Source: Deferrisoma camini S3R1 | GTDB taxonomy: Bacteria > Desulfobacterota > Deferrisomatia > Deferrisomatales > Deferrisomataceae | Assembly: GCF_000526155.1 (NCBI RefSeq) | Contig: NZ_JAFN01000001.1 | Location: 1,761,014 to 1,825,013, forward strand | Length of the DNA stretch: 64,000 nt | Direction: 5' to 3' | In this document: positions 10,746-26,878 of the stretch, piece after piece | How positions within the stretch are numbered: position 1 is the stretch's first letter | How the letters are laid out: each line of letters opens with the position of its first letter | Program-made: the position numbers and the translations under genes | The notes under the pieces: model-generated | Told to the model about the DNA's origin: nothing | What the model saw: the letters and a program-made list of their open reading frames with translations, nothing else | Database searches by the model: none

Positions 10746-11732
10746 ATGGCTTCCACCCAGCTCATCCGTCAGTGGACACTTCTCCAGGAGCTCGCGGTCT
10801 CCCGGTTCGGCCGCACCGCCGCCGAGCTGGCCCGGGCCGCCGAGGCGTCGGCCCGCACCGTGCGCCGCGACCTGGCCGACCTGGAGGCGGCCGGGTTCCC
10901 GGTCGAGCGCCTCCGCGACGGCCGGGAGGTGCGCTACCGCCTGGCCCACACCAAGGCCCTGCCCCAGATCCCCCTGGACCTCCACGAGGCCCTGGCCCTG
11001 CACCAGGCCGCGCTCACCGCCTCGCTGTTCCACACCGCGGCCTTCCACGAGCCCCTCGAGTCGGCCCTGCGCAAGATCCTCCGGACCCTGCCCGAACGCG
11101 TGCGCAACCACCTGGGCCGGGTGTCGGCCGCCTGGTCCCACCGATCGCCGGCCTCGTCCCGGGCGGGCCTGCTCCACACCCTGCGCGTCCTGTCCGAGCA
11201 GGCCGCGGCCCGCTGCCGGGTGCGGATGCGCTACCACAACCTGGAGGCCGAGCTGCGCGACCGGGTGGTGGACCCCTACCTCCTGCGCCAGCACAACACC
11301 GACGTGTACCTGCTGGCCCACTGCCACTTCCGGAGTGAGGTGCGCCTGTTCCACACCGAGCGGATCCTCGAGGTCGAGCCCTTGGACGAGGAGTACCAGA
11401 TGCCCCCCGGGTTCGACCCGGACCGGGTGTTCGCCGAGAGCCTGGGCGTGTTCCTGGGCCCGGCCGGCCACGCCGTGGTGCGCTTTACCGGCTGGGCCGC
11501 CCGGTACGTCATGCACCGCCCCCTCCACCCGGACCAGCAAGTGCTGGAGCGCGCCGACGGCCACGTGGTCGTCCGGGTGCCGGTCCGGGGCCACGCCGAG
11601 ATCACCCAGGCCGTGCTCCGCTTCGGCGACCGGGCCGAGCTCCTGGGCCCGCCGGACCTGCGCGCCCACGTGGCCCAACAGGTTCGCACCCTGGCGGAGC
11701 GGTACAGCCGGGACGGGGAGGATGGGCAGTGA
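10746..11732 (+). CDS. WYL-domain transcriptional regulator upstream of the cas operon
   Basis: DNA-binding regulator of 328 residues. A winged HTH occupies about residues 5-70 (TAAELARAAEASARTVRRDLADLEAAGFPVE). A WYL domain follows at about 145-220, in which DVYLLAHC takes the place of the WYL core (W replaced by V). A C-terminal WCX-like segment runs to the end. WYL proteins bind nucleic-acid-type ligands and several control CRISPR-Cas or other defence loci. It sits 190 bp upstream of cas6 on the same strand, so regulation of the cas operon is an inference from position and family. The start is well supported by an AAAGGGGGG site directly upstream. Confidence 0.85.
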   Translation: MASTQLIRQWTLLQELAVSRFGRTAAELARAAEASARTVRRDLADLEAAGFPVERLRDGREVRYRLAHTKALPQIPLDLHEALALHQAALTASLFHTAAFHEPLESALRKILRTLPERVRNHLGRVSAAWSHRSPASSRAGLLHTLRVLSEQAAARCRVRMRYHNLEAELRDRVVDPYLLRQHNTDVYLLAHCHFRSEVRLFHTERILEVEPLDEEYQMPPGFDPDRVFAESLGVFLGPAGHAVVRFTGWAARYVMHRPLHPDQQVLERADGHVVVRVPVRGHAEITQAVLRFGDRAELLGPPDLRAHVAQQVRTLAERYSRDGEDGQ

Positions 11733-11922
11733 TCGGCACCCTCGCTTCCGGGACGCCCGAGCCTTCCAGCTTTCTGGCTTTCCAGCCTTCGAGCGCGACG
11801 AAGTCGCCCGATGGACAGGATCTGACCGGAATGGGGGGTAAATTTCTTTGAACGCCCCGCCGGCGCCGTAGTACCACAAATGAAAGCGCGGGATGGAGGA
11901 GTCCGTACGAGGAGTGGACCAG
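11733..11922. promoter_or_regulatory. Upstream region of the cas operon
   Basis: Contains a low-complexity CCTTCCAGCTTTCTGGCTTTCC-type string (about 11760-11795). A weak promoter candidate lies nearer cas6: TTGAAC (11848-11853), 18 bases, TACCAC (11872-11877). No palindromic operator was obvious. Confidence 0.3.
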
Positions 11923-12513
11923 ATGACCGTTGAACCGAAAGTGGATCTTGGTTTTCAGCTCCTGGGGCAAACATTGCCCGTGGACCACGGCTATCTCCTC
12001 TATGCGGCCATCAGTCGCATCTTGCCCCGGTGGCACGACATGACCGGAGTGGGGATGGCGCTGGTTCGAGGGCGGTACATCGGGCAGGGCTTGCTCGACA
12101 TCTCGCCACGCTCGGAACTGGTGCTGCGGGTGCCCGCAGGCCTCATCTCAGAAGTCTTGCCGCTGGCCGGCAAAAGCCTCGACATTGCCGGCCACGCCGT
12201 TCGGGTGGGTGTCCCCGTCACCCGTGCCCTGGCGCCAGCGGCCACCCTGTACGCCCACCTCGTCACCACACGGAACGGGCACGACCAGGCCCGATTCGAG
12301 GACGAGATCCGGCGCCAGGCCGGCGCACTCGGTGTGAAAGGGAAACTCACGATCGGGCAACGCAGGACCTTCGCCGTCCACCGCAAGCAGGTGGTCGGCT
12401 ACTCTGTGCTGGCCAGCGAACTCACGGCGGAGGAGTCTATCGAACTGCAAGAAAGCGGGCTCGGGGGGAGGCGGAAGATGGGGTGCGGGGTGTTCGAGGT
12501 GTGGAAGGGATGA
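11923..12513 (+). CDS. cas6: CRISPR-associated endoribonuclease Cas6, I-MYXAN type (Cmx6)
   Basis: Processes the pre-crRNA by cutting at the base of the repeat hairpin. The 196-residue product matches the MYXAN-type Cas6 style: VDLGFQLLGQTLPVDHGYLLYAAISRILP at the N-terminus, RGRYIGQGLLDI in the middle, and a glycine-rich C-terminal GLGGRRKMGCGVFEVWKG. The ATG at 11923 is preferred over 11893 because GAGGAG lies 8 bases upstream and the family N-terminus begins here. It is the first gene of the operon and its TGA overlaps the cas3 start (ATGA). Confidence 0.85.
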   Translation: MTVEPKVDLGFQLLGQTLPVDHGYLLYAAISRILPRWHDMTGVGMALVRGRYIGQGLLDISPRSELVLRVPAGLISEVLPLAGKSLDIAGHAVRVGVPVTRALAPAATLYAHLVTTRNGHDQARFEDEIRRQAGALGVKGKLTIGQRRTFAVHRKQVVGYSVLASELTAEESIELQESGLGGRRKMGCGVFEVWKG

Positions 12514-14825
12514 CCGTTACGAGTCCGCCGGTTGTTCTCGCCAAGAAGCCGCGGGAGAGAACCTCACCACGGCCCGAGGAAACCCTGGTCGGCCACACCG
12601 CCAGCGCTTTGGCGTGTTTCACCAAAATGTTCGGGCGCGCTCACGCCCCGACTCGCCTCGCCCAGCTCTGGTTGGCGTTCTTTCGGGTCCCGAAGGTACT
12701 TTGGCCGGCCTTCTGGCGGAACGGGCCCCTTGCGGTCGCTCTCCACGACGTGGGGAAAGCCAACTCCGGATTTCAGGGCATGCTTCTGAGGGGTAAACCC
12801 CAGGTCCTCTGGCACGACCACTTGGGTGCCATGCTCCTTGGATGGGACGAGATAGGACGTTGGTTCGGCAGCCTACCGGAAATCGACGGTGACCTGGTGC
12901 GTAGCGTCGTCGCGGCACACCACCTGCGGTCGGCCTTCGAAACGTTCGGGGAGCGCCTCGATGCGGACCGGGACGCCTTCGAGCCGATCTGGCCTGGAAT
13001 CCTTGACGTGCTCGAAGTCGCGGCCCGAACGGTCGATGCAGCGCCGCCCACGTTTGATCTTCGCGACGGCTTCTGGTCGTTGGGGGGACCCCGAGGGTTC
13101 GATTGTACGCCGCTGCGCAAAGCGACCAAAGACATGCTCCGGAAGCTTCGGCGGGCACTGGGTCGGGACGAAAACCGTGCGCGGCTCCTCTGGGCCGTTC
13201 GCTCTGCGGTGATTCTCGCAGACAGTGCCGGATCCGGCCTCGTGCGCGAGGGGCACGACATCGCGGAGTGGCTCGACGAGGCATTCTCTCCTCGGCTCGT
13301 CCTCGACGGTGCCTACATCGAACGCGAGGTGATCGAGCCCCGTGTCAGGGAGATCAAGGAGAAGAAGGGGAGTTTTCAGTGGAGCGGCTTCCAGGTCGCC
13401 GCAGACGACCTGCCGGCCCGGGCGCTCTTGCTAGCCCCCTGCGGCAGCGGGAAAACCCTGGCGGCCTGGCGGTGGATCCGGGCTCAACTCGACCGGCGGC
13501 CCGCCTCCCGCGTGCTCTTCCTCTACCCGACCCGAGCCACGGCCACCGAGGGGTTTCGCGACTACGTCTCCTGGGCGCCCGAGGCGGATGCTCGCCTCCT
13601 GACGGGTACCGCTGCCTACGAGCTCGAAGGCATGTTCGAGAACCCAGCGGACCCTCGGTCGGGCAAGAATTTCACCGACGAGGACCGCCTCTTCGCCCTT
13701 GCCTTTTGGCACCGCCGCATCTTCAGCGCCACGGTCGACCAGTTCTTCGGGTTTCTCCAGCACGTATACAAGTCCACCTGCCTCCTGCCGCTCCTGGCCG
13801 ACAGCGTGGTCGTGATCGACGAGGTGCACAGCTTCGACCGGAGTCTTTTCTCCGCCCTGAAAGGGTTCCTGCAAACTTTCGACGTGCCCGTGCTCTGCAT
13901 GACCGCAACCTTGCCAGCCAACCGCCGCGCCGAGTTGGTGGGGGCCTGCGGCCTGACGCCGTTCCCCGCCGAAGCACAAGACTTCCCGGACCTTGCGGCA
14001 AAGGCGAAGATGCCCCGCTATCGCACGAAACGCATCGACCGAGACGACGCGCCGATGATCGTGCAGGAGGCCCTGGACCAGGGCAAGCGCGTGCTCTGGG
14101 TCGTGAACACCGTATCCCGCTGCCAGCAGTTGGCTTTGACTCACCGGGCCCTCTGCTATCACAGCCGGTACCGGCTGCGCGACCGCAAGAAGCGACACCG
14201 CGAGGTGGTCGACGCGTTTCAGGCGGGCAGCGGGCCCGTGCTGGCGGTCACGACCCAGGTGTGCGAGATGAGCCTTGACCTCGACGCCCATGTCCTCGTT
14301 TCGGAGGATGCCCCGGTCACGAGCCTCATCCAGCGCATGGGGCGATGCAACCGCCACGCTGAGCCGGGGGCGGGATCTCTCGGAGAGGTCTTCCTGTACG
14401 AACCCGAGGATTGGAACCCCTACTCCCCCGAGGACCTGGCCGGCACCGCCGAGTTCGTGGCAGCCGTGGACGGCCGTTGCGTGAGCCAGGAGGAGTTGGA
14501 GGAACTACTGGAGAGGCACGGCCCGAAGGGCGTGCAGCCTGACACCTACACGGCCTTCCTACTGAGCGGGCCCTGGGCCGTGAGCGGGGAGGAGCGACTC
14601 CGCGACGCCCGGGATCATTCGGTGCCGTCGATCCTACGGGGCGACCTTCCTGAGTATTTCGACCTGAAGCGATCAGGAGAGCCGGTTGACGGCCTTGTCG
14701 TACCGGCACCCCGTCGGCTGGTGCGCCCCGATACCCGCCTCGGCCGGCTCTACCAGGTGGCACCCTCCGAGAACTACGACCCGCAGTATGGGCTCCTCGA
14801 CAGTCCGCAGGTGGTGATCGAATGA
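12510..14825 (+). CDS. cas3: CRISPR-associated nuclease/helicase Cas3
   Basis: Destroys target DNA after Cascade binding. The 771-residue protein has an N-terminal HD nuclease (H29, HD at 79-80 in LHDVGKANSGFQ, H102 in WHDHL, HH at 137-138). An SF2 helicase follows, with Walker A APCGSGKT near 309-316, DEVH near 436-439, MTATLP near 463 and motif VI QRMGRCNRH near 607. The ATG at 12510 overlaps the cas6 stop. All key residues are present, so it should be active. The gene overlaps cas8 at its end (ATGA). Confidence 0.95.
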   Translation: MTVTSPPVVLAKKPRERTSPRPEETLVGHTASALACFTKMFGRAHAPTRLAQLWLAFFRVPKVLWPAFWRNGPLAVALHDVGKANSGFQGMLLRGKPQVLWHDHLGAMLLGWDEIGRWFGSLPEIDGDLVRSVVAAHHLRSAFETFGERLDADRDAFEPIWPGILDVLEVAARTVDAAPPTFDLRDGFWSLGGPRGFDCTPLRKATKDMLRKLRRALGRDENRARLLWAVRSAVILADSAGSGLVREGHDIAEWLDEAFSPRLVLDGAYIEREVIEPRVREIKEKKGSFQWSGFQVAADDLPARALLLAPCGSGKTLAAWRWIRAQLDRRPASRVLFLYPTRATATEGFRDYVSWAPEADARLLTGTAAYELEGMFENPADPRSGKNFTDEDRLFALAFWHRRIFSATVDQFFGFLQHVYKSTCLLPLLADSVVVIDEVHSFDRSLFSALKGFLQTFDVPVLCMTATLPANRRAELVGACGLTPFPAEAQDFPDLAAKAKMPRYRTKRIDRDDAPMIVQEALDQGKRVLWVVNTVSRCQQLALTHRALCYHSRYRLRDRKKRHREVVDAFQAGSGPVLAVTTQVCEMSLDLDAHVLVSEDAPVTSLIQRMGRCNRHAEPGAGSLGEVFLYEPEDWNPYSPEDLAGTAEFVAAVDGRCVSQEELEELLERHGPKGVQPDTYTAFLLSGPWAVSGEERLRDARDHSVPSILRGDLPEYFDLKRSGEPVDGLVVPAPRRLVRPDTRLGRLYQVAPSENYDPQYGLLDSPQVVIE

Positions 14826-16537
14826 CGACGGCTCGCTTTGAAGGCAACGAGGGAAAGACCCTCGTCCTGGAGTACGACCTCTTCGACCTTCCAACGGCCC
14901 AGCACAAGGCCGGGCTCGCGGGACTCTTGCTCGTGGTCGAGTCGATGAAACGCCGCGGGCTGGCGCCGCGGCCAGAGGTGGACGTTGGCGCAACGTCGGC
15001 GACGGTACGAACGAGCCGAGAGGGCTTTCAGGCGCTTTTCGATGACTTGTACGATGCGGAATGGGTGGAGACCGAATCGCGCCAGAAATGGCCAGGAAAA
15101 ACGCCAAAGCGAACCGAAGAACGAGAGGTGGGCACGAGCGATAAACCAAAGAAGGAGAAGCGTTTCATCTATGACGTCGTGCAACCGCGGGGCAGGTTCC
15201 TGCGGGCATTCTACCCGCCTGGGGCGGAATCATGGGTGAAGCTCTGGCGCGACATGATCTGGAACACCCAACGCAGCCGACCGAGGGCCCGGCGCGTTTA
15301 CGACGAACGCGCCGACGGGAAACCCTCGTCCCTCGGTGGGCTGTGGGCCGAGTTCGAGAAGTCGGCCAAAGACAGAGTTCGGGGCCGCACGCGGACCACC
15401 GGCTTCGGGGGCTCCCTTTTTGTCGGTGCCCAAGACTCGAACGCAGAGCGCGTCTCTTTCAAAGGCACGGTGGAGGAGACCCTCCTCCTCCACTTCTGGC
15501 CCGCCATCGCGGCGATCTACGCCCCCAGTCGGCTGAAAATCGATCGCGGGCAAGAGGGCCTCCAAGCCAAATCGGAGGACGCAGGCTATCTCGTGGTGAT
15601 ACCTGAACCCGGGCACTTGGAAGATTTCGTGGCCGACTCCATCAGCGCGCTCGGCTCGCTGGACCCCGCGGCCAGGGGGAACGACTACCGGCCGAAAGCG
15701 GCTCGGATCGACGTGCCCGCCGAAGGAGGGTTGGAGTACCTCTACCACCTTGCCATGCACCGCACGGCGGGTCGTGAGTTGGCCGACCTGCTGGTCGCCG
15801 TGGAGATCTACCACCTGGAAAAACGAGGGAACAACGTAAGGATGCTCGCCGCCGACCGGCTCGCACCCCGGCGGCGCCTCTTGGAGCAGTACGAACGGCT
15901 CCGCGAACAGTGGGCGAACCCGCTGTACAAGGCGGTGAGGCTGTCGAACCTGCTGGCCGACGCGCCCTGGTTCCAGGGGTTCGACAGGTGTTTCGCCGAG
16001 AACCCCTGGCAGATGTTTGTCCATACGAAGGAGACGCCAGCGTGGCCCCGCTTCTTCGGTCGCGATGTGAGGGACGTATTGGCAACGATCGAAGAGCGAG
16101 ACTCATCCAGGAAGGGAGAAGACGACATGAGCGAAGAGGAACGGATCGACGCACTGGCGCTGCGGGTGCATCGGCTCATTCGAGGCTACGTCAACGCCCG
16201 CACGGAAGAGAGGTCCGGGAAGAAGTACAAGGATTTCAAGAATAACCGGGACGACAAAGGCCGGGTGATTTACCCGAAGGAGTACCGCGAAGCCAGAGAG
16301 AAGGTCTGCTCGGACGCCTTTCTCGCCATGCGCGGCCGGCGCGACCAGGACTTCGTGGAGTACTTCACCGGCACGATCTGCTCGGTCCCCCATTATCTCC
16401 CCGAGGACGACTATCTCGCCGTCGCCCAGGCACTGCTCGCCGACTGGCAGACTGTGAAGACGCTCTCGATGCTTGCTCTCTCGGCGAGTTCCTTTCTTGC
16501 CTCAGAAACCCCTGCCATCCAGGAGGATGCATCATGA
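14822..16537 (+). CDS. cas8: Cascade large subunit Cas8 (DevT/Cmx1-like)
   Basis: Large subunit of the type I interference complex, expected to recognise the PAM and recruit Cas3. Its 571 residues have no strong short motif, and assignment rests on position between cas3 and the devR-like cas7, on size, and on general resemblance to the Myxococcus DevT/Cmx1 group (EYDLFDLPTAQHKAGLAGLLL at the N-terminus). The ATG overlaps the cas3 stop, and its own TGA overlaps cas7. Charged C-terminal stretches (about 430-520) fit nucleic acid binding. Confidence 0.75.
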   Translation: MTTARFEGNEGKTLVLEYDLFDLPTAQHKAGLAGLLLVVESMKRRGLAPRPEVDVGATSATVRTSREGFQALFDDLYDAEWVETESRQKWPGKTPKRTEEREVGTSDKPKKEKRFIYDVVQPRGRFLRAFYPPGAESWVKLWRDMIWNTQRSRPRARRVYDERADGKPSSLGGLWAEFEKSAKDRVRGRTRTTGFGGSLFVGAQDSNAERVSFKGTVEETLLLHFWPAIAAIYAPSRLKIDRGQEGLQAKSEDAGYLVVIPEPGHLEDFVADSISALGSLDPAARGNDYRPKAARIDVPAEGGLEYLYHLAMHRTAGRELADLLVAVEIYHLEKRGNNVRMLAADRLAPRRRLLEQYERLREQWANPLYKAVRLSNLLADAPWFQGFDRCFAENPWQMFVHTKETPAWPRFFGRDVRDVLATIEERDSSRKGEDDMSEEERIDALALRVHRLIRGYVNARTEERSGKKYKDFKNNRDDKGRVIYPKEYREAREKVCSDAFLAMRGRRDQDFVEYFTGTICSVPHYLPEDDYLAVAQALLADWQTVKTLSMLALSASSFLASETPAIQEDAS

Positions 16538-17484
16538 ACCTCTTCGCCACTGTACTCACCTACGCCGCCCCCAGCGCCAACTACCGAGGCGAGTCCGCCG
16601 AGAACCGCGCGGTGATCCAGAAGATCACGAAGGGGCGCTTCGAGTACGCCATCATCTCTCCAGAGGCCATCCGGAACGCGCTGAGGGAGACATTGCGTAA
16701 ATTAGGGCTGCCCTGTAACCGGAGTCGCCTCGACGACGAGGAGCAACTCGCCGTAGAGTTCCAGGACTACCCGGATAGTGGCCGCTTCGCGGATGATTTC
16801 TTCATGGGCTGGATGATCGCCCCAAAGCCCCAAGAACGTAAGAAGATCCTCGACGCTGTAGCGAAGTCTCCGCACCGGTCAAGCCAACCCTTCACGTTCA
16901 AACGCGACTCTGTTCTTCGAATGAACATGGCCGTCGCCCTGGAGCCTTACCGTCACGACAGCGTGTTCACCCAATCGCCGCTCAACGCCGGCAAGAGCCC
17001 TTGGAAGAACGCTACCAGCTCCCAACTCCTGCATCGGGAGACCGCCTACACCGCATACCAGTTCCCGTTCGCCCTGAACCTGGAGGACTGCCGCGTAAAA
17101 CCTCACTGGACCCGGACGCTGCTGCGGGCAATCGGACAACTGAACGAAGTTGCAGGCAACCACGCCCGTAGCTATTTCGAGATGGCGCCCGCTAGCATCG
17201 TGGTTCGGCTCACCCCAAGCCTGGTTGCCGGCTTCAACACCTACGGCTTCGAGATCGCCGAGGACGGGCGCCACGTGCTCCCTGAGATCGAACAGGGCCT
17301 TTTGGCCGGCGAGACAGCCGACGAAGCGGACTTCCCCGGAGGCGAGTTCTACCTTGGTGGCAAGGTCGTCCGGGACATGGACGAGGCCACGGTGAAAGAA
17401 CTGCAGAATCGGGGCGTCACGCTCGATCGAAGCCCTCAGAGGTTGCTTGAACGTGTGGCAGACGCAGCATTGCCGTCTTCCTAG
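16534..17484 (+). CDS. cas7: Cascade backbone subunit Cas7 (DevR family)
   Basis: RNA-binding backbone protein that polymerises along the crRNA. The 316-residue product is DevR/Cst2-like: NLFATVLTYAAPSANYRGESAENRAVIQKI at the start, SALE-type ordered segments, the central RMNMAVALEPYRHDSVFTQSP and FPFALNLEDCRVKPHW. In Myxococcus xanthus the homologue DevR belongs to the dev operon. It overlaps cas8 by ATGA and is followed by cas5 after 11 bp. Confidence 0.85.
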   Translation: MNLFATVLTYAAPSANYRGESAENRAVIQKITKGRFEYAIISPEAIRNALRETLRKLGLPCNRSRLDDEEQLAVEFQDYPDSGRFADDFFMGWMIAPKPQERKKILDAVAKSPHRSSQPFTFKRDSVLRMNMAVALEPYRHDSVFTQSPLNAGKSPWKNATSSQLLHRETAYTAYQFPFALNLEDCRVKPHWTRTLLRAIGQLNEVAGNHARSYFEMAPASIVVRLTPSLVAGFNTYGFEIAEDGRHVLPEIEQGLLAGETADEADFPGGEFYLGGKVVRDMDEATVKELQNRGVTLDRSPQRLLERVADAALPSS

Positions 17485-17495
17485 CCGGGTCGCTC

Positions 17496-18182
17496 ATGCT
17501 GACGCTCTATCTGCAGGCGCCGTTCGCGACATTCCGCCACTTCACCGCCGGGAGCTTTCGGCCCACCGCCGGCTTCCTCACACCGTCAGCGGCCTACGGG
17601 CTCCTGCTCAACGTCGCAGGCATCGAGATGCGCATAGACGAAGGCAGGGAAATGACCGTGGTCCGGCAAGGGCTCCCCGCTGTGCGACTCGCCTTGGGTG
17701 CCCTCTCGATGCCGATACAGCACTTCGTTTACCAGCAACTCCACAACTATCCTGTGGGTAAGGATGCAGGGAAGAACTATGCGGCCGGCGCCAGGGGCAA
17801 CAAGTACAACATCAGCCCGGTCCGCAGGGCCTTTCTCTCTGGGATCCGTGCCTATGTTTGCATGGACGGGAACCCGGAATTGGAGAAGCAAGTTCTGGAG
17901 GGGGTGGCGGGCAGAGGGGCGAGAGGGTACGGCCTGCCCTTCCTGGGCGACAACAGCTTCCTGATCGACCGCCTGGAAGCCGTCGAACGGCGCGAACCGG
18001 CGTATTGGTTTGAACGCATCGAGGGCGGCGACGGCGAGGGTATCCGCCCCGGCACCAGCCGTCTCACCGTTACTATCGACCGCGCCAACATGGCCGGGAC
18101 GAGGAGCTTCTTGTATGCTCCAACTGAACACAAAACAGTCGATATCCCGGAACGCGCGTGGACCGAGGTCGCGTATTCCTGA
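17496..18182 (+). CDS. cas5: Cascade subunit Cas5 (DevS family)
   Basis: Caps the 5' handle of the crRNA. The 228-residue product starts with the Cas5 signature APFATFRHFTAGSFRPTAGFLTPSAAYGLLLNVAGIE. It ends the block of interference genes. Downstream there is a 46-bp gap and then a toxin-antitoxin module instead of the expected adaptation genes. Confidence 0.87.
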   Translation: MLTLYLQAPFATFRHFTAGSFRPTAGFLTPSAAYGLLLNVAGIEMRIDEGREMTVVRQGLPAVRLALGALSMPIQHFVYQQLHNYPVGKDAGKNYAAGARGNKYNISPVRRAFLSGIRAYVCMDGNPELEKQVLEGVAGRGARGYGLPFLGDNSFLIDRLEAVERREPAYWFERIEGGDGEGIRPGTSRLTVTIDRANMAGTRSFLYAPTEHKTVDIPERAWTEVAYS

Positions 18183-18228
18183 CCTGGGGTGATGGGCGCG
18201 CCCCGCAGAACACCAGAGAGGTGACGCC

Positions 18229-18459
18229 ATGCAGTCCGCGAAGAAGATCACGGCCGCCGACGCCTTGGCGCTGGACATCCCCGAGCGCATCCGGTTGGTG
18301 GGGGACATCTGGGACAGCATCGCCGAGGTTCCGGAGGCGGTGCCCGTAACCGACGAGATACGGGCCGAACTGGACCGTCGGCTCCGGGCTTACGAGGACG
18401 CAACCGAGGCCGGCGAGCCCTGGAGCGTGGTTCGGGAGCGCCTCCTGCATCGCAAGTGA
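18229..18459 (+). CDS. Antitoxin, TIGR02574-type addiction module protein
   Basis: Small acidic protein of 76 residues resembling the family of addiction module components that pair with RelE/ParE toxins (LALDIPERIRLVGDIWDSI, then a charged helix ELDRRLRAYEDATEAGEPWSVVRERLL). It has a good GAGAGGTGACGCC ribosome site. It lies 46 bp after cas5 and 4 bp before the toxin, on the same strand as the cas genes. It should neutralise the toxin and repress its own promoter; the repressor role is family knowledge. Its site inside a cas operon is unusual. Confidence 0.85.
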   Translation: MQSAKKITAADALALDIPERIRLVGDIWDSIAEVPEAVPVTDEIRAELDRRLRAYEDATEAGEPWSVVRERLLHRK

Positions 18460-18463
18460 AGCG

Positions 18464-18760
18464 ATGCTGCGGATACAGAGCGAAGCCGAGAAAGATCTCG
18501 CCACCGCATATGACTGGTACGAGGCCCGGCAACCCGGACTTGGGGCGGAGTTCTTGGCAGAGATCGACGCGGTGCTTTCACGGATCGGGGAGGCACCCAC
18601 CCGGTACCCTGTGGTCCACCGCGGCGTGCGCCGAGCACTTGCTCGGCGCTTCCCGTACGGCGTCTTCTATCTGATCGCCCCGGATGCCGTCGTCGTGATC
18701 GCCGTTCTCCACGCCGCCCGAGACCCCGCTCTTCTGCGCCGGCGCTCCAAGTCGGTCTGA
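18464..18760 (+). CDS. RelE/ParE superfamily toxin
   Basis: A 98-residue type II toxin of the RelE/ParE fold (IQSEAEKDLATAYDWYEARQPGLGAEFLAEIDAVLSRI, then RRALARRFPYGVFYLI and VIAVLHAARDP). The sequence pattern is ParE-like, a group whose members often act on gyrase, though the target cannot be told. It starts 4 bp after its antitoxin and ends 29 bp before cas4-cas1, so it probably shares the cas transcript. Confidence 0.87.
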   Translation: MLRIQSEAEKDLATAYDWYEARQPGLGAEFLAEIDAVLSRIGEAPTRYPVVHRGVRRALARRFPYGVFYLIAPDAVVVIAVLHAARDPALLRRRSKSV

Positions 18761-18789
18761 CCCCAAGACTTGCCACGAGAGGCCTGAAT

Positions 18790-20517
18790 ATGGCCGATGC
18801 CGAGTTCGAAGACGCCTTCCGCTCGCACCACCACGCCGAACGGACCACCGACGAGCCCTTCATCCGGGTGATGGCCCTGCACGCCCTGGCTTACTGCGAG
18901 CGGCTTTTCTATCTGGAAGAGGTGGAAGAAATCCGCGTCGCCGACGCCAACGTGTACTCGGGGCGGCGGCTTCACGACCAGATCGACAAGGGGCCTGATA
19001 CCTATACCGTCGAGCTTGCGAGCGAGCGCCTGGGCATCCGGGGCAAGGTCGACGCGGCCCGGCGCGAAGACGGGCACCTGGTGGTCACCGAGCACAAAAA
19101 AGGGCGGTCGAAGAAAGGGGTGGAAGCGTGGCCCAGCGATCGGCTCCAGGTGCTGGCCTATGCTCTGCTCTTATCGGAACACCGGGGCGAACCCGTCCCC
19201 GAAGCCGTCATCCGCTACCACGCCGACCGGAAGACGATTCGAATCCCCGTGGATGAGAAGGAAGCCGAAGCGGTGGTCGGGGCCGCCGTCCAGAGGGCCC
19301 GCGAGTTGCGGGCGGGACTGGAGCGGCCCCCGGTTAGCGTGCCGGAACACCAGTGCCGCACCTGTTCCCTGGCCCCGGTCTGTCTTCCGGAAGAGGAACG
19401 CTTTGCCGTCGCGGGCGAGGGCAAGGCACAGCGATTGTTCCCAGCGGACGAGACCCGGCGGGTCGTCCACGTGGTGGAGCAAGGCAGCTTCGTTCGCAGA
19501 GAGGGCGACCGCTTCGTGGTCGGCACCCCGGACGGGGCCAAGAAACCCCTTCCTGCCAGGACCGTCTCGGCGTTGGTGCTGCACGGAAATGTCCAAGTGA
19601 CCACCCAGGTGATCCACTACTGTGCGGGGAACGACATCAGTGTTCACTGGCTGTCGTACGGGGGCCACTATGTGGCGGGAGTAGCTGCGGGGGCAGGAGG
19701 GGTGCAACGGCGAAACCGCCAATACCAAGCTCTCTGCAACCCTTTGCTGAGGGCGCGCCTGGCTGCGCGGATCGCCCTGGCCAAAACAGAGAACCAGCTC
19801 CGTTACCTGCTGCGGGCCACCCGGGGAGCAGAAAGAGGCCGTTCGGCCACGGTCGAGGAGGGCATCGCCGCCCTGCGCGCGGCGGTATCCGGGCTGGCAG
19901 CCCAAGTGAAGGATTTGGATGCCCAGGAAAGTCTGAGCACCGACGAAGCCGAGCGGCAAATCGCCAGCCTGCGGGGTCATGAGGGGTTGGCCGGCAGGAG
20001 GTACTTCGAGTTGTTGCCGGCTGTACTCAAGCTGCAAGCGGACGATTTTCTCTATTTCACCGGTCGCAACCGCAGGCCGCCTAAAGATCCGTTCAATGCC
20101 CTTCTCTCTTTCGGGTACGCCCTGCTGTATCGCGACTGCGTGGCAGCGCTCATGACGGTCGGCCTGGAACCGTCTCTTGGGATTTTGCACACGCCGAGAT
20201 CGACGGCGTACCCCCTCGCCCTCGATCTGATGGAGCTGTTTCGCTTGATCGTATGGGACGTTCCCCTGATCGGCTCGGTGAACCGCCGCCAGTGGACCAA
20301 AGCGGATTTCGATATCACCAGCGGGCAGGTGTGGCTGAATCCGGACGGTCGCCGCAAGGCCATCCAGGTGTACGAGAGCCGGAAGCAGGAGAAGTGGAAA
20401 CACCCTGTTCTTGGTTACTCGTTGAGCTACGCCCGTACCCTGGAGCTGGAGGCCCGGCTCCTCGAGAAGGAGTGGAGCGGCCAGCCGGGGCTCTTCGGAA
20501 AGTTGAGGTTGCGCTGA
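18790..20517 (+). CDS. cas4-cas1: CRISPR-associated Cas4-Cas1 fusion protein
   Basis: Spacer-adaptation enzyme of 575 residues. The N-terminal half (about 1-215) is Cas4: AYCERLFYLEE with the first cluster Cys near 36, the RecB nuclease residues in GKVDAA and TEHKKG, DRLQVLAYALL, and the C-terminal cluster HQCRTCSLAPVC (about 187-197). The C-terminal part (about 230-575) is Cas1 integrase, with LLSFGYALLYRD, GLEPSLGILH and LALDLMELFR carrying the metal-binding Glu, His and Asp. Cas4 selects PAM-bearing prespacers and Cas1 integrates them. Such fusions are typical of dev-type and some I-U loci. The stop overlaps cas2. Confidence 0.93.
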   Translation: MADAEFEDAFRSHHHAERTTDEPFIRVMALHALAYCERLFYLEEVEEIRVADANVYSGRRLHDQIDKGPDTYTVELASERLGIRGKVDAARREDGHLVVTEHKKGRSKKGVEAWPSDRLQVLAYALLLSEHRGEPVPEAVIRYHADRKTIRIPVDEKEAEAVVGAAVQRARELRAGLERPPVSVPEHQCRTCSLAPVCLPEEERFAVAGEGKAQRLFPADETRRVVHVVEQGSFVRREGDRFVVGTPDGAKKPLPARTVSALVLHGNVQVTTQVIHYCAGNDISVHWLSYGGHYVAGVAAGAGGVQRRNRQYQALCNPLLRARLAARIALAKTENQLRYLLRATRGAERGRSATVEEGIAALRAAVSGLAAQVKDLDAQESLSTDEAERQIASLRGHEGLAGRRYFELLPAVLKLQADDFLYFTGRNRRPPKDPFNALLSFGYALLYRDCVAALMTVGLEPSLGILHTPRSTAYPLALDLMELFRLIVWDVPLIGSVNRRQWTKADFDITSGQVWLNPDGRRKAIQVYESRKQEKWKHPVLGYSLSYARTLELEARLLEKEWSGQPGLFGKLRLR

Positions 20518-20810
20518 TGGGCGCGGAGCAGCACTGGCATCTGGTCAGCTACGACATACGGGACGACCGGCGCTGGCGGCGTGCGTACAAGATCTTGAAC
20601 GGGCGGGGCGAGCGGATCCAGTACTCCGTGTTCCGGGTGCGCATGAGCCGTACCCAGTTGGAGGAACTCCGGTGGGAACTCGGCAAGATTTTGGCCGAAG
20701 AAGACGACCTGATGATCATCCGGCTCTGCCAAGGGTGCGCCCAGCGGGTTATCGACAGCCGTGGGGAAGATGCTTGGAAGAACGCACCGCCGAGGTTCGA
20801 GATTCTTTGA
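20517..20810 (+). CDS. cas2: CRISPR-associated endonuclease Cas2
   Basis: Dimerises between Cas1 dimers in the adaptation complex. The 97-residue protein has the ferredoxin-like start LVSYDIRDDRRWRRAYKIL with the conserved Asp after beta-1, and YSVFRVRMSRTQLEELRWEL. It overlaps the cas4-cas1 stop (TGATG). It is the last gene before the leader. Confidence 0.93.
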   Translation: MGAEQHWHLVSYDIRDDRRWRRAYKILNGRGERIQYSVFRVRMSRTQLEELRWELGKILAEEDDLMIIRLCQGCAQRVIDSRGEDAWKNAPPRFEIL

Positions 20811-21046
20811 TCAAGCACCAAGAAAAACACGAATGCGAATCCCGCCCACAGGGCCGAAACCGCCTGTCCAGCCGGGCCGAAAAGGCAACCGGGAGAGGGA
20901 AAGGTGCGTGAACGAAAAAAACTACGTCATTCCAACGGATTTCGCGTCGCACGAAGGTTCGTTCGCAAACACCCAGCATCAATCTTGGTAGTGCCTGATT
21001 ACAGGTCCAAAAACACCAATGGTCACAAGTCCTTGCGGGGGGCGCA
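20811..21046 (+). promoter_or_regulatory. CRISPR leader
   Basis: 236 bp between cas2 and the first repeat, visibly lower in GC than its surroundings, with A-rich stretches (GAACGAAAAAAACTACG near 20908). It ends with GGGGGGCGCA before the first repeat. The leader should hold the array promoter and integration signals; no clear -35/-10 pair could be assigned. Confidence 0.6.
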
Positions 21047-24000
21047 GTGACCCGATCTTCGATGCCGAAAGGCGTTGAGCACCGCACGTCTCCACCGGTC
21101 TCCCGGGCCTCGCGGTACGTGACCCGATCTTCGATGCCGAAAGGCGTTGAGCACCGCACGTCTCCACCGGTCTCCCGGGCCTCGCGGTGTGACCCGATCT
21201 TCGATGCCGAAAGGCGTTGAGCACGTGCCGTAGGCCCTCCGCTCGTCGTCCGAGGCTTTGTGACCCGATCTTCGATGCCGAAAGGCGTTGAGCACTAGAA
21301 GGTCCTTCGGCGTTTCATCGTTCTATTTCGTGACCCGATCTTCGATGCCGAAAGGCGTTGAGCACTCCACCTCGATGGAAAGGGAAGTGATCGGATTGGG
21401 GTGTGACCCGATCTTCGATGCCGAAAGGCGTTGAGCACATGAAGTGGGCCTTGGGTGTGCTGGTGACGACCACAGTGACCCGATCTTCGATGCCGAAAGG
21501 CGTTGAGCACTCGCGGATGATCTGGTGCATGTGGTCCTCCTTGGGTGACCCGATCTTCGATGCCGAAAGGCGTTGAGCACTCCAACCCTGCGGCAAGGTC
21601 CGGATCTCGGATTGGGTGACCCGATCTTCGATGCCGAAAGGCGTTGAGCACATGGTCCCGCCGTTGTGGTTTGATTTGTCTTCGCTGTGACCCGATCTTC
21701 GATGCCGAAAGGCGTTGAGCACAACCCCGAGAATCCGGGACGGACGGAGGGAGACGGTGTGACCCGATCTTCGATGCCGAAAGGCGTTGAGCACTTTTCT
21801 TGCCCCTCAAGCGCCTCCTTGACCACTTCGTGACCCGATCTTCGATGCCGAAAGGCGTTGAGCACTCCGGAAGCACGAGCTCCGAGCCCACGCCGTGGGG
21901 TGACCCGATCTTCGATGCCGAAAGGCGTTGAGCACGCCTCCACCCCTGCGGCCGATTCCACCCGCCGCACGTGACCCGATCTTCGATGCCGAAAGGCGTT
22001 GAGCACCCTTTGAGGAGGTCGGGGTTCTTTGACATGGGCGCGTGACCCGATCTTCGATGCCGAAAGGCGTTGAGCACTCCCGCAGGCCGCCTTTCTGTCG
22101 CAGGAACTCCAGTGACCCGATCTTCGATGCCGAAAGGCGTTGAGCACTCCGAGAACACGAGTTCCCGCACCTGGTCCCGGTGTGACCCGATCTTCGATGC
22201 CGAAAGGCGTTGAGCACACGGAAAGCGGGAAAACGGCGCTAGCGAAGCGACTGTGACCCGATCTTCGATGCCGAAAGGCGTTGAGCACGCGTACAGCAGC
22301 ATGTTCAGCCAGGACTCGGTCTTCGTGACCCGATCTTCGATGCCGAAAGGCGTTGAGCACATGGTCATCTGCGGATTGCTGGGCCTGATCACGCGTGACC
22401 CGATCTTCGATGCCGAAAGGCGTTGAGCACGAGATGCTTCGGTTCGTCACGGGCGGCGGCACGGTGACCCGATCTTCGATGCCGAAAGGCGTTGAGCACT
22501 CGAGGATCTCCGCCCGGGCCCGCACGGCCACCCGCGTGACCCGATCTTCGATGCCGAAAGGCGTTGAGCACGCGTACAGCAGCATGTTCAGCCAGGACTC
22601 GGTCTTCGTGACCCGATCTTCGATGCCGAAAGGCGTTGAGCACATGGTCATCTGCGGATTGCTGGGCCTGATCACGCGTGACCCGATCTTCGATGCCGAA
22701 AGGCGTTGAGCACTCGAGGATCTCCGCCCGGGCCCGCACGGCCACCCGCGTGACCCGATCTTCGATGCCGAAAGGCGTTGAGCACTCCACCTCGATGGAA
22801 AGGGAAGTGATCGGATTGGGGTGTGACCCGATCTTCGATGCCGAAAGGCGTTGAGCACATGAAGTGGGCCTTGGGTGTGCTGGTGACGACCACAGTGACC
22901 CGATCTTCGATGCCGAAAGGCGTTGAGCACTCGCGGATGATCTGGTGCATGTGGTCCTCCTTGGGTGACCCGATCTTCGATGCCGAAAGGCGTTGAGCAC
23001 TCCAACCCTGCGGCAAGGTCCGGATCTCGGATTGGGTGACCCGATCTTCGATGCCGAAAGGCGTTGAGCACATGGTCCCGCCGTTGTGGTTTGATTTGTC
23101 TTCGCTGTGACCCGATCTTCGATGCCGAAAGGCGTTGAGCACAACCCCGAGAATCCGGGACGGACGGAGGGAGACGGTGTGACCCGATCTTCGATGCCGA
23201 AAGGCGTTGAGCACTTTTCTTGCCCCTCAAGCGCCTCCTTGACCACTTCGTGACCCGATCTTCGATGCCGAAAGGCGTTGAGCACTCCGGAAGCACGAGC
23301 TCCGAGCCCACGCCGTGGGGTGACCCGATCTTCGATGCCGAAAGGCGTTGAGCACGCCTCCACCCCTGCGGCCGATTCCACCCGCCGCACGTGACCCGAT
23401 CTTCGATGCCGAAAGGCGTTGAGCACCCTTTGAGGAGGTCGGGGTTCTTTGACATGGGCGCGTGACCCGATCTTCGATGCCGAAAGGCGTTGAGCACTCC
23501 CGCAGGCCGCCTTTCTGTCGCAGGAACTCCAGTGACCCGATCTTCGATGCCGAAAGGCGTTGAGCACTCCGAGAACACGAGTTCCCGCACCTGGTCCCGG
23601 TGTGACCCGATCTTCGATGCCGAAAGGCGTTGAGCACACGGAAAGCGGGAAAACGGCGCTAGCGAAGCGACTGTGACCCGATCTTCGATGCCGAAAGGCG
23701 TTGAGCACGCGTACAGCAGCATGTTCAGCCAGGACTCGGTCTTCGTGACCCGATCTTCGATGCCGAAAGGCGTTGAGCACATGGTCATCTGCGGATTGCT
23801 GGGCCTGATCACGCGTGACCCGATCTTCGATGCCGAAAGGCGTTGAGCACGAGATGCTTCGGTTCGTCACGGGCGGCGGCACGGTGACCCGATCTTCGAT
23901 GCCGAAAGGCGTTGAGCACTCGAGGATCTCCGCCCGGGCCCGCACGGCCACCCGCGTGACCCGATCTTCGATGCCGAAAGGCGTTGAGCACTTGTTAAGC

Positions 24001-24061
24001 TTCTCGGCGTCGTCGGCGCCGTGGAGTGACCCGATCTTCGATGCCGAAAGGCGTTGAGCAC
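21047..24061 (+). CRISPR. CRISPR array, 43 repeats of 36 bp and 42 spacers
   Basis: The repeat begins GTGACCCGATCTTCG and ends AAAGGCGTTGAGCAC. All copies read were identical, including the last (24026-24061). Spacers are 33-37 bp. The core ATGCC-GAAA-GGCGT can form a 5-bp hairpin with a GNRA loop. Cutting at its 3' base leaves the 8-nt handle TTGAGCAC only in the plus orientation, matching a leader at 20811-21046. Only about 21 distinct spacers exist. Spacers 5-21 (21366-22535) recur exactly at 22786-23955, with a further copy of spacers 18, 19 and 21 between the blocks. Spacers 1 and 2 share one sequence but differ by 2 nt in length. The long minus-strand frames across it are repeat artefacts. 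Confidence 0.97.
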
Positions 24062-24733: not shown

Positions 24734-26878
24734 ATGCGAAGAGCGATTTGGGCTGTGGCCGTGGTAGGGCTCGGTTTGGGAATCGCGGCGTGCGGCGGCA
24801 CCGGGGGTGGAACCGGGGGTGATGTGGGATCGACCGCCAACTCCGCACCCACGGCTGATGCCGGCCCGGATCAGAACGTGGCCACCGGCTCCACCGTCAC
24901 CCTCGACGGAAGCGCCAGCTCCGACGCCGACGGCGACCCGCTCACCTATGCCTGGGGCTTTGTCTCGAAGCCCTCGGGGAGCACGGCCACCCTGTCGGAT
25001 GCGGCCGCGGCCAAGCCCTCCTTCACCGCCGACCTGGACGGTGACTACGTGCTGCAGCTCGTCGTCAACGACGGCACCGTGGACAGCACCGCTGACTCCG
25101 TGACCGTCACCGCGGCCACCGCCAACTCCGCACCCACGGCCGATGCCGGCCCGGATCAGAACGTGGCCACCGGCTCCACCGTCACCCTCGACGGAAGCGC
25201 CAGCTCCGACGCCGACGGCGACCCGCTCACCTATGCCTGGAGCTTCGTCTCGAAGCCCTCGGGGAGCACGGCCACCCTGTCGGACGCGGCCGCGGCCAAG
25301 CCCTCCTTCACCGCCGACCTGGACGGTGACTACGTGCTGCAGCTCGTCGTCAACGACGGCACCGTGGACAGCACCGCCGACTCCGTGACCGTCACCGCGG
25401 CCACCGCCAACTCCGCACCCACGGCCGACGCCGGCCCGGATCAGAACGTGGTCACCGGCTCCACCGTCACCCTCGACGGAAGCGCCAGCTCCGACGCCGA
25501 CGGCGACCCGCTCACCTATGCCTGGAGCTTCGTCTCGAAGCCCTCGGGGAGCACGGCCACGCTGTCGGACGCGGCCGCGGCCCAACCCTCCTTCACCGCC
25601 GACCTGGACGGTGACTACGTGCTGCAGCTCGTCGTCAACGACGGCTTCGTGGACAGCACCGCCGACTCCGTGACCATCACCGCGTTCGCTCCGGCGACCC
25701 CCGCCGATGCGCTGGACGACACCTTCGGCCGGGGTGGCATCGCGTACTGGGACAACGGGGGAGGCAGCGACTCCGGCCAGGCCCTCCTCCAGGCTGGCGG
25801 ACGTTTCCTGGTGGCGGTCTCCACATCGTTGAGCTACAGCTCGGGGGAGACCTCCATCGTGGCGTTCGATTCGTCCGGAGTCCTGGACACCACGTTCGGC
25901 ACGGACGGGGTTGCCACGTGGACGCTGGGGGGCACGAGCAGCGGCACCTCTGCCCTGGCCGTGCAGCCCGACGGGAAGATCCTGGCGGCAGGCTCGGCCT
26001 TTGCCAGTGGCGTTACCACGTATAAGGACATGGCCGTCGCCCGGTTCACGGCGGACGGGGTGCTGGACACCACGTTCGGCACCGATGGCATCGCCACATG
26101 GGACTCCGGGGGGATCGACGAGGCCGCCGACGTGGCCGTTCTGGACACGGGCGAGATCGTCTTGGCCGGGGCGACCGCGTATCCGTACGACCTGGTGCTG
26201 GCCCGATTCCTCTCCGACGGGTCGATGGACACGTCGTTCGGGACGGGGGGATCGGTCACCTGGGACAACAGCGGCGGGACGGATAGCGCGGCCGCGGTGG
26301 CCGCCCTGTCCGGGGGAGCGATCGTGGTGGCCGGAAACACGTTCGTGAGCGGCGGCACGAAGGATGTCGTGCTCCTCCGTTACCTGTCCGACGGCACGCT
26401 GGACCCCGGTTTCGGGACGAGCGGGGTCGTGACCTGGGACGGGGGGCAGTCGGACTCCGCCGCGGACATGGTGGTGACGGACGACGGATCCATCCTCGTG
26501 GTAGGCACCTCGGACAACGGTACGGACACGGATGTGCTGCTCCTCAAGTTCGGAGCGGACGGGGCCCTGGACACCACCTTCGGTTCCGGCGGAGCGGTCA
26601 CCTGGGACGGAGGTGGGACCTCCGACCAGGGCCTGGGTCTGGCCGTGACAGCCGACGGGAAGATCCTGGTCGGCGGATCCACCGACGGTTCCGGAGTGGT
26701 GCTCCGGTTCTCCGGCGCGGGCCAGTTGGACACGACCTTTGGCACGAACGGCGTGCTCACCTGGTCCGGAGGTTCCGTTGTCGTGGCGTTCCAGGTTCTT
26801 TCCGATGGGAGCGTTCTAGCCGCGGGCACCGAAAACACGGGCACGGACAACGACGCGGCCGTGCTGAAACTCAAGTGA
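24734..26878 (+). CDS. Lipoprotein with three PKD domains and delta-60 repeats
   Basis: Surface or periplasmic protein of 714 residues. It has a lipoprotein signal (GLGLGIAAC, Cys near 21), then a glycine-rich linker. Three tandem 95-residue PKD-type Ig domains follow (about 36-320; TADAGPDQNV, GSASSDADGDPLTYAWSF, DGDYVLQLVVNDG). About seven delta-60-type repeats run to the end (LDTTFGTDGVATWTLGG ... AVQPDGKILAAGSA). Delta-60 repeats form a beta-propeller-like array in large secreted proteins. The three PKD units are almost identical at DNA level. The ATG has a GAGGAGG site. An adhesion or binding role is inferred. Confidence 0.85.
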   Translation: MRRAIWAVAVVGLGLGIAACGGTGGGTGGDVGSTANSAPTADAGPDQNVATGSTVTLDGSASSDADGDPLTYAWGFVSKPSGSTATLSDAAAAKPSFTADLDGDYVLQLVVNDGTVDSTADSVTVTAATANSAPTADAGPDQNVATGSTVTLDGSASSDADGDPLTYAWSFVSKPSGSTATLSDAAAAKPSFTADLDGDYVLQLVVNDGTVDSTADSVTVTAATANSAPTADAGPDQNVVTGSTVTLDGSASSDADGDPLTYAWSFVSKPSGSTATLSDAAAAQPSFTADLDGDYVLQLVVNDGFVDSTADSVTITAFAPATPADALDDTFGRGGIAYWDNGGGSDSGQALLQAGGRFLVAVSTSLSYSSGETSIVAFDSSGVLDTTFGTDGVATWTLGGTSSGTSALAVQPDGKILAAGSAFASGVTTYKDMAVARFTADGVLDTTFGTDGIATWDSGGIDEAADVAVLDTGEIVLAGATAYPYDLVLARFLSDGSMDTSFGTGGSVTWDNSGGTDSAAAVAALSGGAIVVAGNTFVSGGTKDVVLLRYLSDGTLDPGFGTSGVVTWDGGQSDSAADMVVTDDGSILVVGTSDNGTDTDVLLLKFGADGALDTTFGSGGAVTWDGGGTSDQGLGLAVTADGKILVGGSTDGSGVVLRFSGAGQLDTTFGTNGVLTWSGGSVVVAFQVLSDGSVLAAGTENTGTDNDAAVLKLK
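24841..25695. repeat. Three near-identical 285-bp tandem repeats encoding PKD domains
   Basis: Units begin at 24841, 25126 and 25411, each starting CTCCGCACCC. They differ at only a few positions each (for example GGC/AGC in the TYAW region and GCC/GTC in QNVA/V), so they have duplicated recently or are being homogenised. Confidence 0.85.

Follow-up and report, generated by a model that had tools for sequence, protein, structure and literature searches.

An intact type II toxin-antitoxin pair, by origin an ordinary and scattered module, appears to have been captured as cargo at a permissive boundary between the effector and adaptation genes of a type I-MYXAN CRISPR-Cas operon in Deferrisoma camini S3R1. 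There it is probably transcribed with the cas genes and would stabilise the locus passively; we give this reading a probability of roughly 0.6. The pair lies in a 64,000-nucleotide stretch of the genome, referred to here as the window.

A ParE-type pair inside a complete type I-MYXAN operon

The host operon is a complete type I-MYXAN system, with cmx6, cmx8, the devS-type cas5 and cas1_MYXAN all scoring above cut-off and a CRISPR array present (Table 1). A regulator with a WYL/WCX domain is a candidate controller of this operon; its relatives are located upstream of cas6 in loci L012, L017, L022 and L046, and upstream of cas genes in L023. Between the end of cas5 (18182) and the start of the cas4-cas1 fusion (18790) lie an antitoxin gene and a toxin gene, co-directional on the + strand, antitoxin first and separated by 4 nt, leaving gaps of 46 bp before the antitoxin and 29 bp after the toxin. 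The first-pass annotation had placed a TIGR02574 antitoxin and a toxin in the same direction at this point, and its coordinates proved exact to the base.

Table 1. Features of the CRISPR-Cas operon and the embedded pair (positions in the window)
Feature	Position	Strand	Evidence
WYL/WCX-domain transcriptional regulator, upstream of cas6	10746..11732	+	PF13280, PF25583, HTH_11
cas6 (cmx6)	11893..12513	+	TIGR02807, 199 bits
cas3 helicase with HD domain; start approximate, overlaps cas6	12510..14825	+	TIGR01587, TIGR01596
cmx8, large subunit, Cas8b_N and Cas8b_C	14822..16537	+	TIGR04413, 452 bits; PF24121, PF24122
cas7 (DevR family)	16534..17484	+	TIGR01875/TIGR02585 below cut-offs; position; 64-81% identity to cas7 of relatives
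cas5 (devS)	17496..18182	+	TIGR02586, 121.5 bits over cut-off
Antitoxin, PF09720/TIGR02574 family, 76 aa	18229..18459	+	TIGR02574 and PF09720 profile matches
ParE-type toxin, 98 aa	18464..18760	+	PF05016; AlphaFold2 model; conserved columns
cas4-cas1 fusion	18790..20517	+	TIGR03983, 438.8 bits; TIGR00372
cas2	20520..20810	+	TIGR01573, PF09827
CRISPR array, 43 exact 36-bp repeats, 42 spacers	21047..24061	+	Exact repeats

The antitoxin matched TIGR02574 with 66.2 bits (cut-off 31.9) and PF09720 with 53.1 bits (cut-off 23.3), and it is the sole PF09720 match over cut-off in the 4.24 Mb genome. The toxin matched PF05016 (ParE_toxin) with 44.4 bits (cut-off 23). Its AlphaFold2 model (mean pLDDT 91.6) was compared with known structures by Foldseek, with ParE2 of M. 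tuberculosis (8c26) and ParE (3kxe) as the best matches (TM 0.75-0.85); RelE and YoeB ranked behind the ParE structures, and Cami1 (8phb) was a weak fold match. On this model the toxin is of the ParE fold and not RelE, so that of the earlier label, RelE/ParE, only the ParE half is retained. Gyrase would be the target expected from the family. The pair looks intact because the toxin retains all 25 of the 25 columns conserved at at least 80% in an alignment of 28 toxins. With a GC content of 0.66-0.68, against 0.61-0.66 for the cas genes, it is not strikingly foreign. No Rfam match was found near the pair, and no inverted-repeat operator was detected in 18150-18300 or 18700-18800 at the lengths tested.

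The array of this operon holds only 22 distinct spacers among its 42, with a block of about 1420 bp duplicated internally, so that part of the memory is carried twice; no spacer matched the rest of the window at the threshold used. Just past the array (24833-26800), a 285-bp unit occurs in three tandem copies (95-98% identity to the first), and diverged repeats encoding LDxxFG-type motifs follow; the region probably codes for a surface or propeller protein rich in repeats. A second CRISPR locus of this genome is of type III-A (L118, G000:C1:3781000-3800500), with Cas10/Csm1, Csm2, a Csm6-type NE0113 protein, a TIGR02619 protein, cas1 and a second cas1-like fragment. It also encodes a 722-aa protein with a C-terminal adenosine deaminase and a weak CARF-type match near the N-terminus, resembling Cad1 of PMC11645235.

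Unrelated inserts at the same junction of other MYXAN loci

Gene gaps were measured in 20 MYXAN loci including the window, taken from genomes and plasmids, with gene starts called automatically. Seventeen offered a usable cas5/cas4-cas1 junction; these represent three bacterial groups, and 5 of them come from cyanobacterial plasmids. Adding the classes of G571, G029 and G468 to the sample yielded no clean new MYXAN junction, and viral contigs queried with two cas4-cas1 proteins returned no relatives. Inserts of at least 300 bp occupied 7 of the 17 effector/adaptation junctions and 1 of the 81 other cas junctions (Fisher p ~1e-5, for loci that are few and phylogenetically non-independent), the latter mostly overlapping or abutting, with a median gap of 1 bp. 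Complete pairs alone occurred at 4 of the 17 (p 0.003). Since the window prompted the survey, counts that exclude it give the fairer estimate, and both enrichments persist in them (p 7e-5 for inserts, 0.016 for complete pairs). The earlier view that dev-type loci are normally uninterrupted at this point is accurate for about 10 of the 17, which have 177 bp or less at the junction and no recognised gene, and fails for the seven with an insert.

The inserts are diverse, and the window pair itself was not found at this junction in the relatives; other pairs, other cargo or nothing stood in its place. In the closest relative (L010, cas proteins 67-81% identical) an 87-aa ParE_like toxin (PF24732) is preceded at the junction by a small protein of 76 aa that falls into no clear family; neither has detectable homology to the window pair. 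MntA-HepT fills the junction of a Desulfobacteraceae MAG (L011), and that of a planctomycete (L034/L043) is occupied by a PIN toxin with a FitA-like antitoxin, both encoded on the opposite strand. The insert of Gloeothece (L018) is a Uma2 gene, and those of L022 and L023 are of unknown family. The sole insert at the other cas junctions, a small gene and a PIN toxin, lies between cas7 and cas5 of a Synechococcus NIES-970 plasmid (L023, 6841-7454), and a HicBA pair is located 13 bp before cas6 on a Synechocystis PCC 6714 plasmid (L022, 1807-2218). As the pair differs from locus to locus, there is no co-evolution of pair and CRISPR type.

Cargo at the equivalent junction of type I-C operons

As a control we used type I-C loci of the same phylum, drawn from the 30 best-scoring, 27 of which had both cas7 and cas4 visible. 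The loci set aside were L079 (a VapBC-like pair, followed by a type III-B-like locus and not by cas4), L056 (contig end) and L078 (no cas4). In L121 (G249:C116:6000-15000), a MazE-like antitoxin and a PIN toxin were observed on the opposite strand between a I-C effector operon and the next locus, which seems to encode Cmr proteins of type III-B. Cargo was present at the cas7/cas4 junction in 5 of the 27 (RhuM twice, Fic, Bro-N and an IVP-like gene), and no insert was seen between cas8 and cas7 in about 27 loci. Since type I-C also carries cargo at the equivalent junction, the effector/adaptation boundary seems to serve type I operons in general as a site for cargo. None of the 27 I-C junctions held a toxin-antitoxin pair, compared with 4 of 17 in MYXAN (p ~0.018, from a small sample, uncorrected for relatedness or choice of test and one of several tests on the same data). 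Pairs are possibly favoured in MYXAN, and such an excess over I-C would hint at something beyond plain permissiveness.

This excess bears on an explanation in which selection acts for any pair at the module boundary, where loss of either module would be punished, the identity of the pair being interchangeable and its function conserved. The four non-homologous complete pairs at one junction among 17 loci point in this direction, as do the HicBA and PIN pairs of the cyanobacterial plasmids, and CreTA offers a precedent for addiction to a CRISPR system (PMC9458426, PMC10097628). Against such selection, 10 of the 17 loci lack an insert of at least 300 bp, type I-C has RhuM, Fic and Bro-N cargo instead of pairs, and one MYXAN pair is on the opposite strand. 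Moreover, any pair stabilises its neighbourhood, which makes special selection unnecessary. We consider this explanation unlikely, and slightly more doubtful still its strongest form, in which MYXAN operons keep a dedicated, interchangeable slot between effector and adaptation genes and any pair there acts as a protein addiction guard coupling the modules, a counterpart of RNA-based CreTA that evolved repeatedly out of unrelated toxin families. The first-pass annotation had suggested that the embedded pair could serve as an addiction guard. A complete same-direction pair within the operon and a recurrently filled junction are consistent with a guarding role, which the pair could have; its difference from locus to locus speaks against a dedicated guard.

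CreTA (type VIII) likewise places a toxin-antitoxin module within a CRISPR-Cas locus, on which cells can come to depend. It works through RNA, however: its toxin is a small RNA, which Cascade represses by means of an RNA derived from a repeat, whereas the window pair consists of two proteins. Near the pair, the best 36-nt match to the repeat had 20 identities, against 19-22 in shuffled sequence, a comparison that a strongly degenerated single repeat could escape. A guard of the CreTA type is thus not supported, both parts being proteins and no repeat-like sequence rising above the shuffled controls.

A scattered module with little room for its own promoter

The family of the pair is scattered, with members in 99 of 390 genomes from this phylum. 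The 29 nearest relatives of the toxin that were retrieved occupy scattered sites in other genomes of the phylum, and 24 of them have the same antitoxin family immediately upstream, which excludes pairing by chance. None of the 29 has cas genes within about 1.5 kb. This is the scatter at random sites that had been named beforehand as a result that would speak against a guarding role. Judged by these relatives, the window pair is by origin an ordinary scattered type II module. Its free-standing PF09720/TIGR02574 and ParE counterparts share the family, gene order and spacing, but stand away from cas genes; in most of them the upstream DNA is free over at least 97 bp (20 of 21, by distance to the nearest upstream ORF of at least 120 aa, a count that misses small genes).

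Embedded pairs are more tightly placed. The gap between cas5 and the pair is 46 bp in the window, 13 bp in L010 and 11 bp in L011, and the Shine-Dalgarno sequence of the L010 antitoxin starts at the cas5 stop codon. With gaps of 11-46 bp before same-strand pairs, little room is left for a promoter of their own. A sigma-70 scan of 11700-21100, which is weak evidence in a GC-rich genome, returned no promoter-like site, and terminator-like sites in the same interval were not above chance. From this spacing we infer that embedded pairs on the same strand are carried by the cas transcript; the window pair is probably expressed from the cas promoter, together with the cas genes. Such co-transcription is not general, since the planctomycete pair lies on the opposite strand.

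These observations also weigh on another alternative, in which a free module landed there by chance, is expressed independently behind its own insulating signals without connection to cas expression, and is merely tolerated by the operon. A family this common and scattered, the absence of cas genes near all 29 close relatives and the opposite-strand planctomycete pair would all fit it. The inserts are, however, far from randomly placed (7 of 17 junctions against 1 of 81), the same-strand pairs leave only 11-46 bp for a promoter, and the window has no terminator beyond chance. Chance insertion of this kind is in our view improbable.

A proposed permissive joint between two modules

In the reading that we prefer, capture as cargo, the pair would have entered at the boundary of the effector genes (cas6-cas3-cmx8-cas7-cas5) and the adaptation genes (cas4-cas1, cas2). 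This boundary may be a permissive, loosely joined point of an operon whose effector genes mostly overlap or abut. Translational coupling would be lost if a cassette entered among the effector genes, but would be left intact by one lying between the modules. Permissiveness at this joint would explain why different lineages hold different, unrelated pairs or cargo there. Once in place, the labile antitoxin would be supplied from inside the operon, and deletion or silencing of the operon would leave the stable toxin behind. Provided that the ParE homologue is toxic, the leftover toxin would penalise loss of the operon and so stabilise the locus, following the usual addiction logic and without a CRISPR-specific mechanism. 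A passive stabilising effect of the pair is plausible on these grounds.

MntA-HepT, VapBC-like and ParE-type toxins all slow growth. A toxin of this sort could be part of immunity itself, unleashed if interference is overwhelmed or if time must be gained for adaptation, with dormancy or abortive infection as the outcome. This is the hypothesis of Makarova and Koonin, put forward when coupling of immunity and suicide was proposed and toxin-like genes in CRISPR loci were pointed out (Makarova et al., PMC3506569), and Zhang, Doak and Ye (2013, PMC3936711) read their pairs in that way. Yet PMC3506569 itself emphasised toxins without typical antitoxins, and each unrelated pair would need its own trigger. 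Neither a sensor nor a CARF domain was seen, nor any physical link to a Cas protein, and the pair had no PADLOC match. Direct coupling of the toxin to immunity is therefore a poor candidate, with a low probability. Cami1 and other CARF-RelE toxins of type III systems resemble the window toxin as members of the RelE/ParE superfamily linked to CRISPR. They differ in that Cami1 is a CARF fusion, activated by cyclic oligoadenylate and without an antitoxin, while the window toxin consists of ParE alone and is paired with an antitoxin that is a protein.

Relation to earlier reports and significance

Pairs in type I cas loci, PF09720 members included, have been known since 2013 (PMC3936711). Complete pairs were described there in type I cas loci only, antitoxin first and mostly on the cas strand; Unstab_antitox (PF09720) was among the antitoxin families, and Fic and 23S_rRNA_IVP were reported as cargo too. 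In the window, too, both genes of the pair are complete and lie within a type I cas locus, and this arrangement may itself be among those examples. The text of that article, unlike the present study, gives no analysis of the junction used or of the MYXAN type. In the main texts of the open-access literature searched, we found no description of recurrent use of this junction. Typical antitoxins were said in 2012 to be absent from immunity loci (PMC3506569), and the present data qualify that statement on the antitoxins of typical toxin-antitoxin systems.

The repeated filling of one junction suggests a cargo site that might help to keep the immune system from being lost, and the pattern is worth a proper survey. 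Even if the pairs are no more than passive cargo, defence or toxin genes captured by type I operons can be sought cheaply at the effector/adaptation boundary. If the slot is real and under selection, it would represent a protein-based addiction mechanism, and would help to explain the persistence of an immunity that is costly and often lost.
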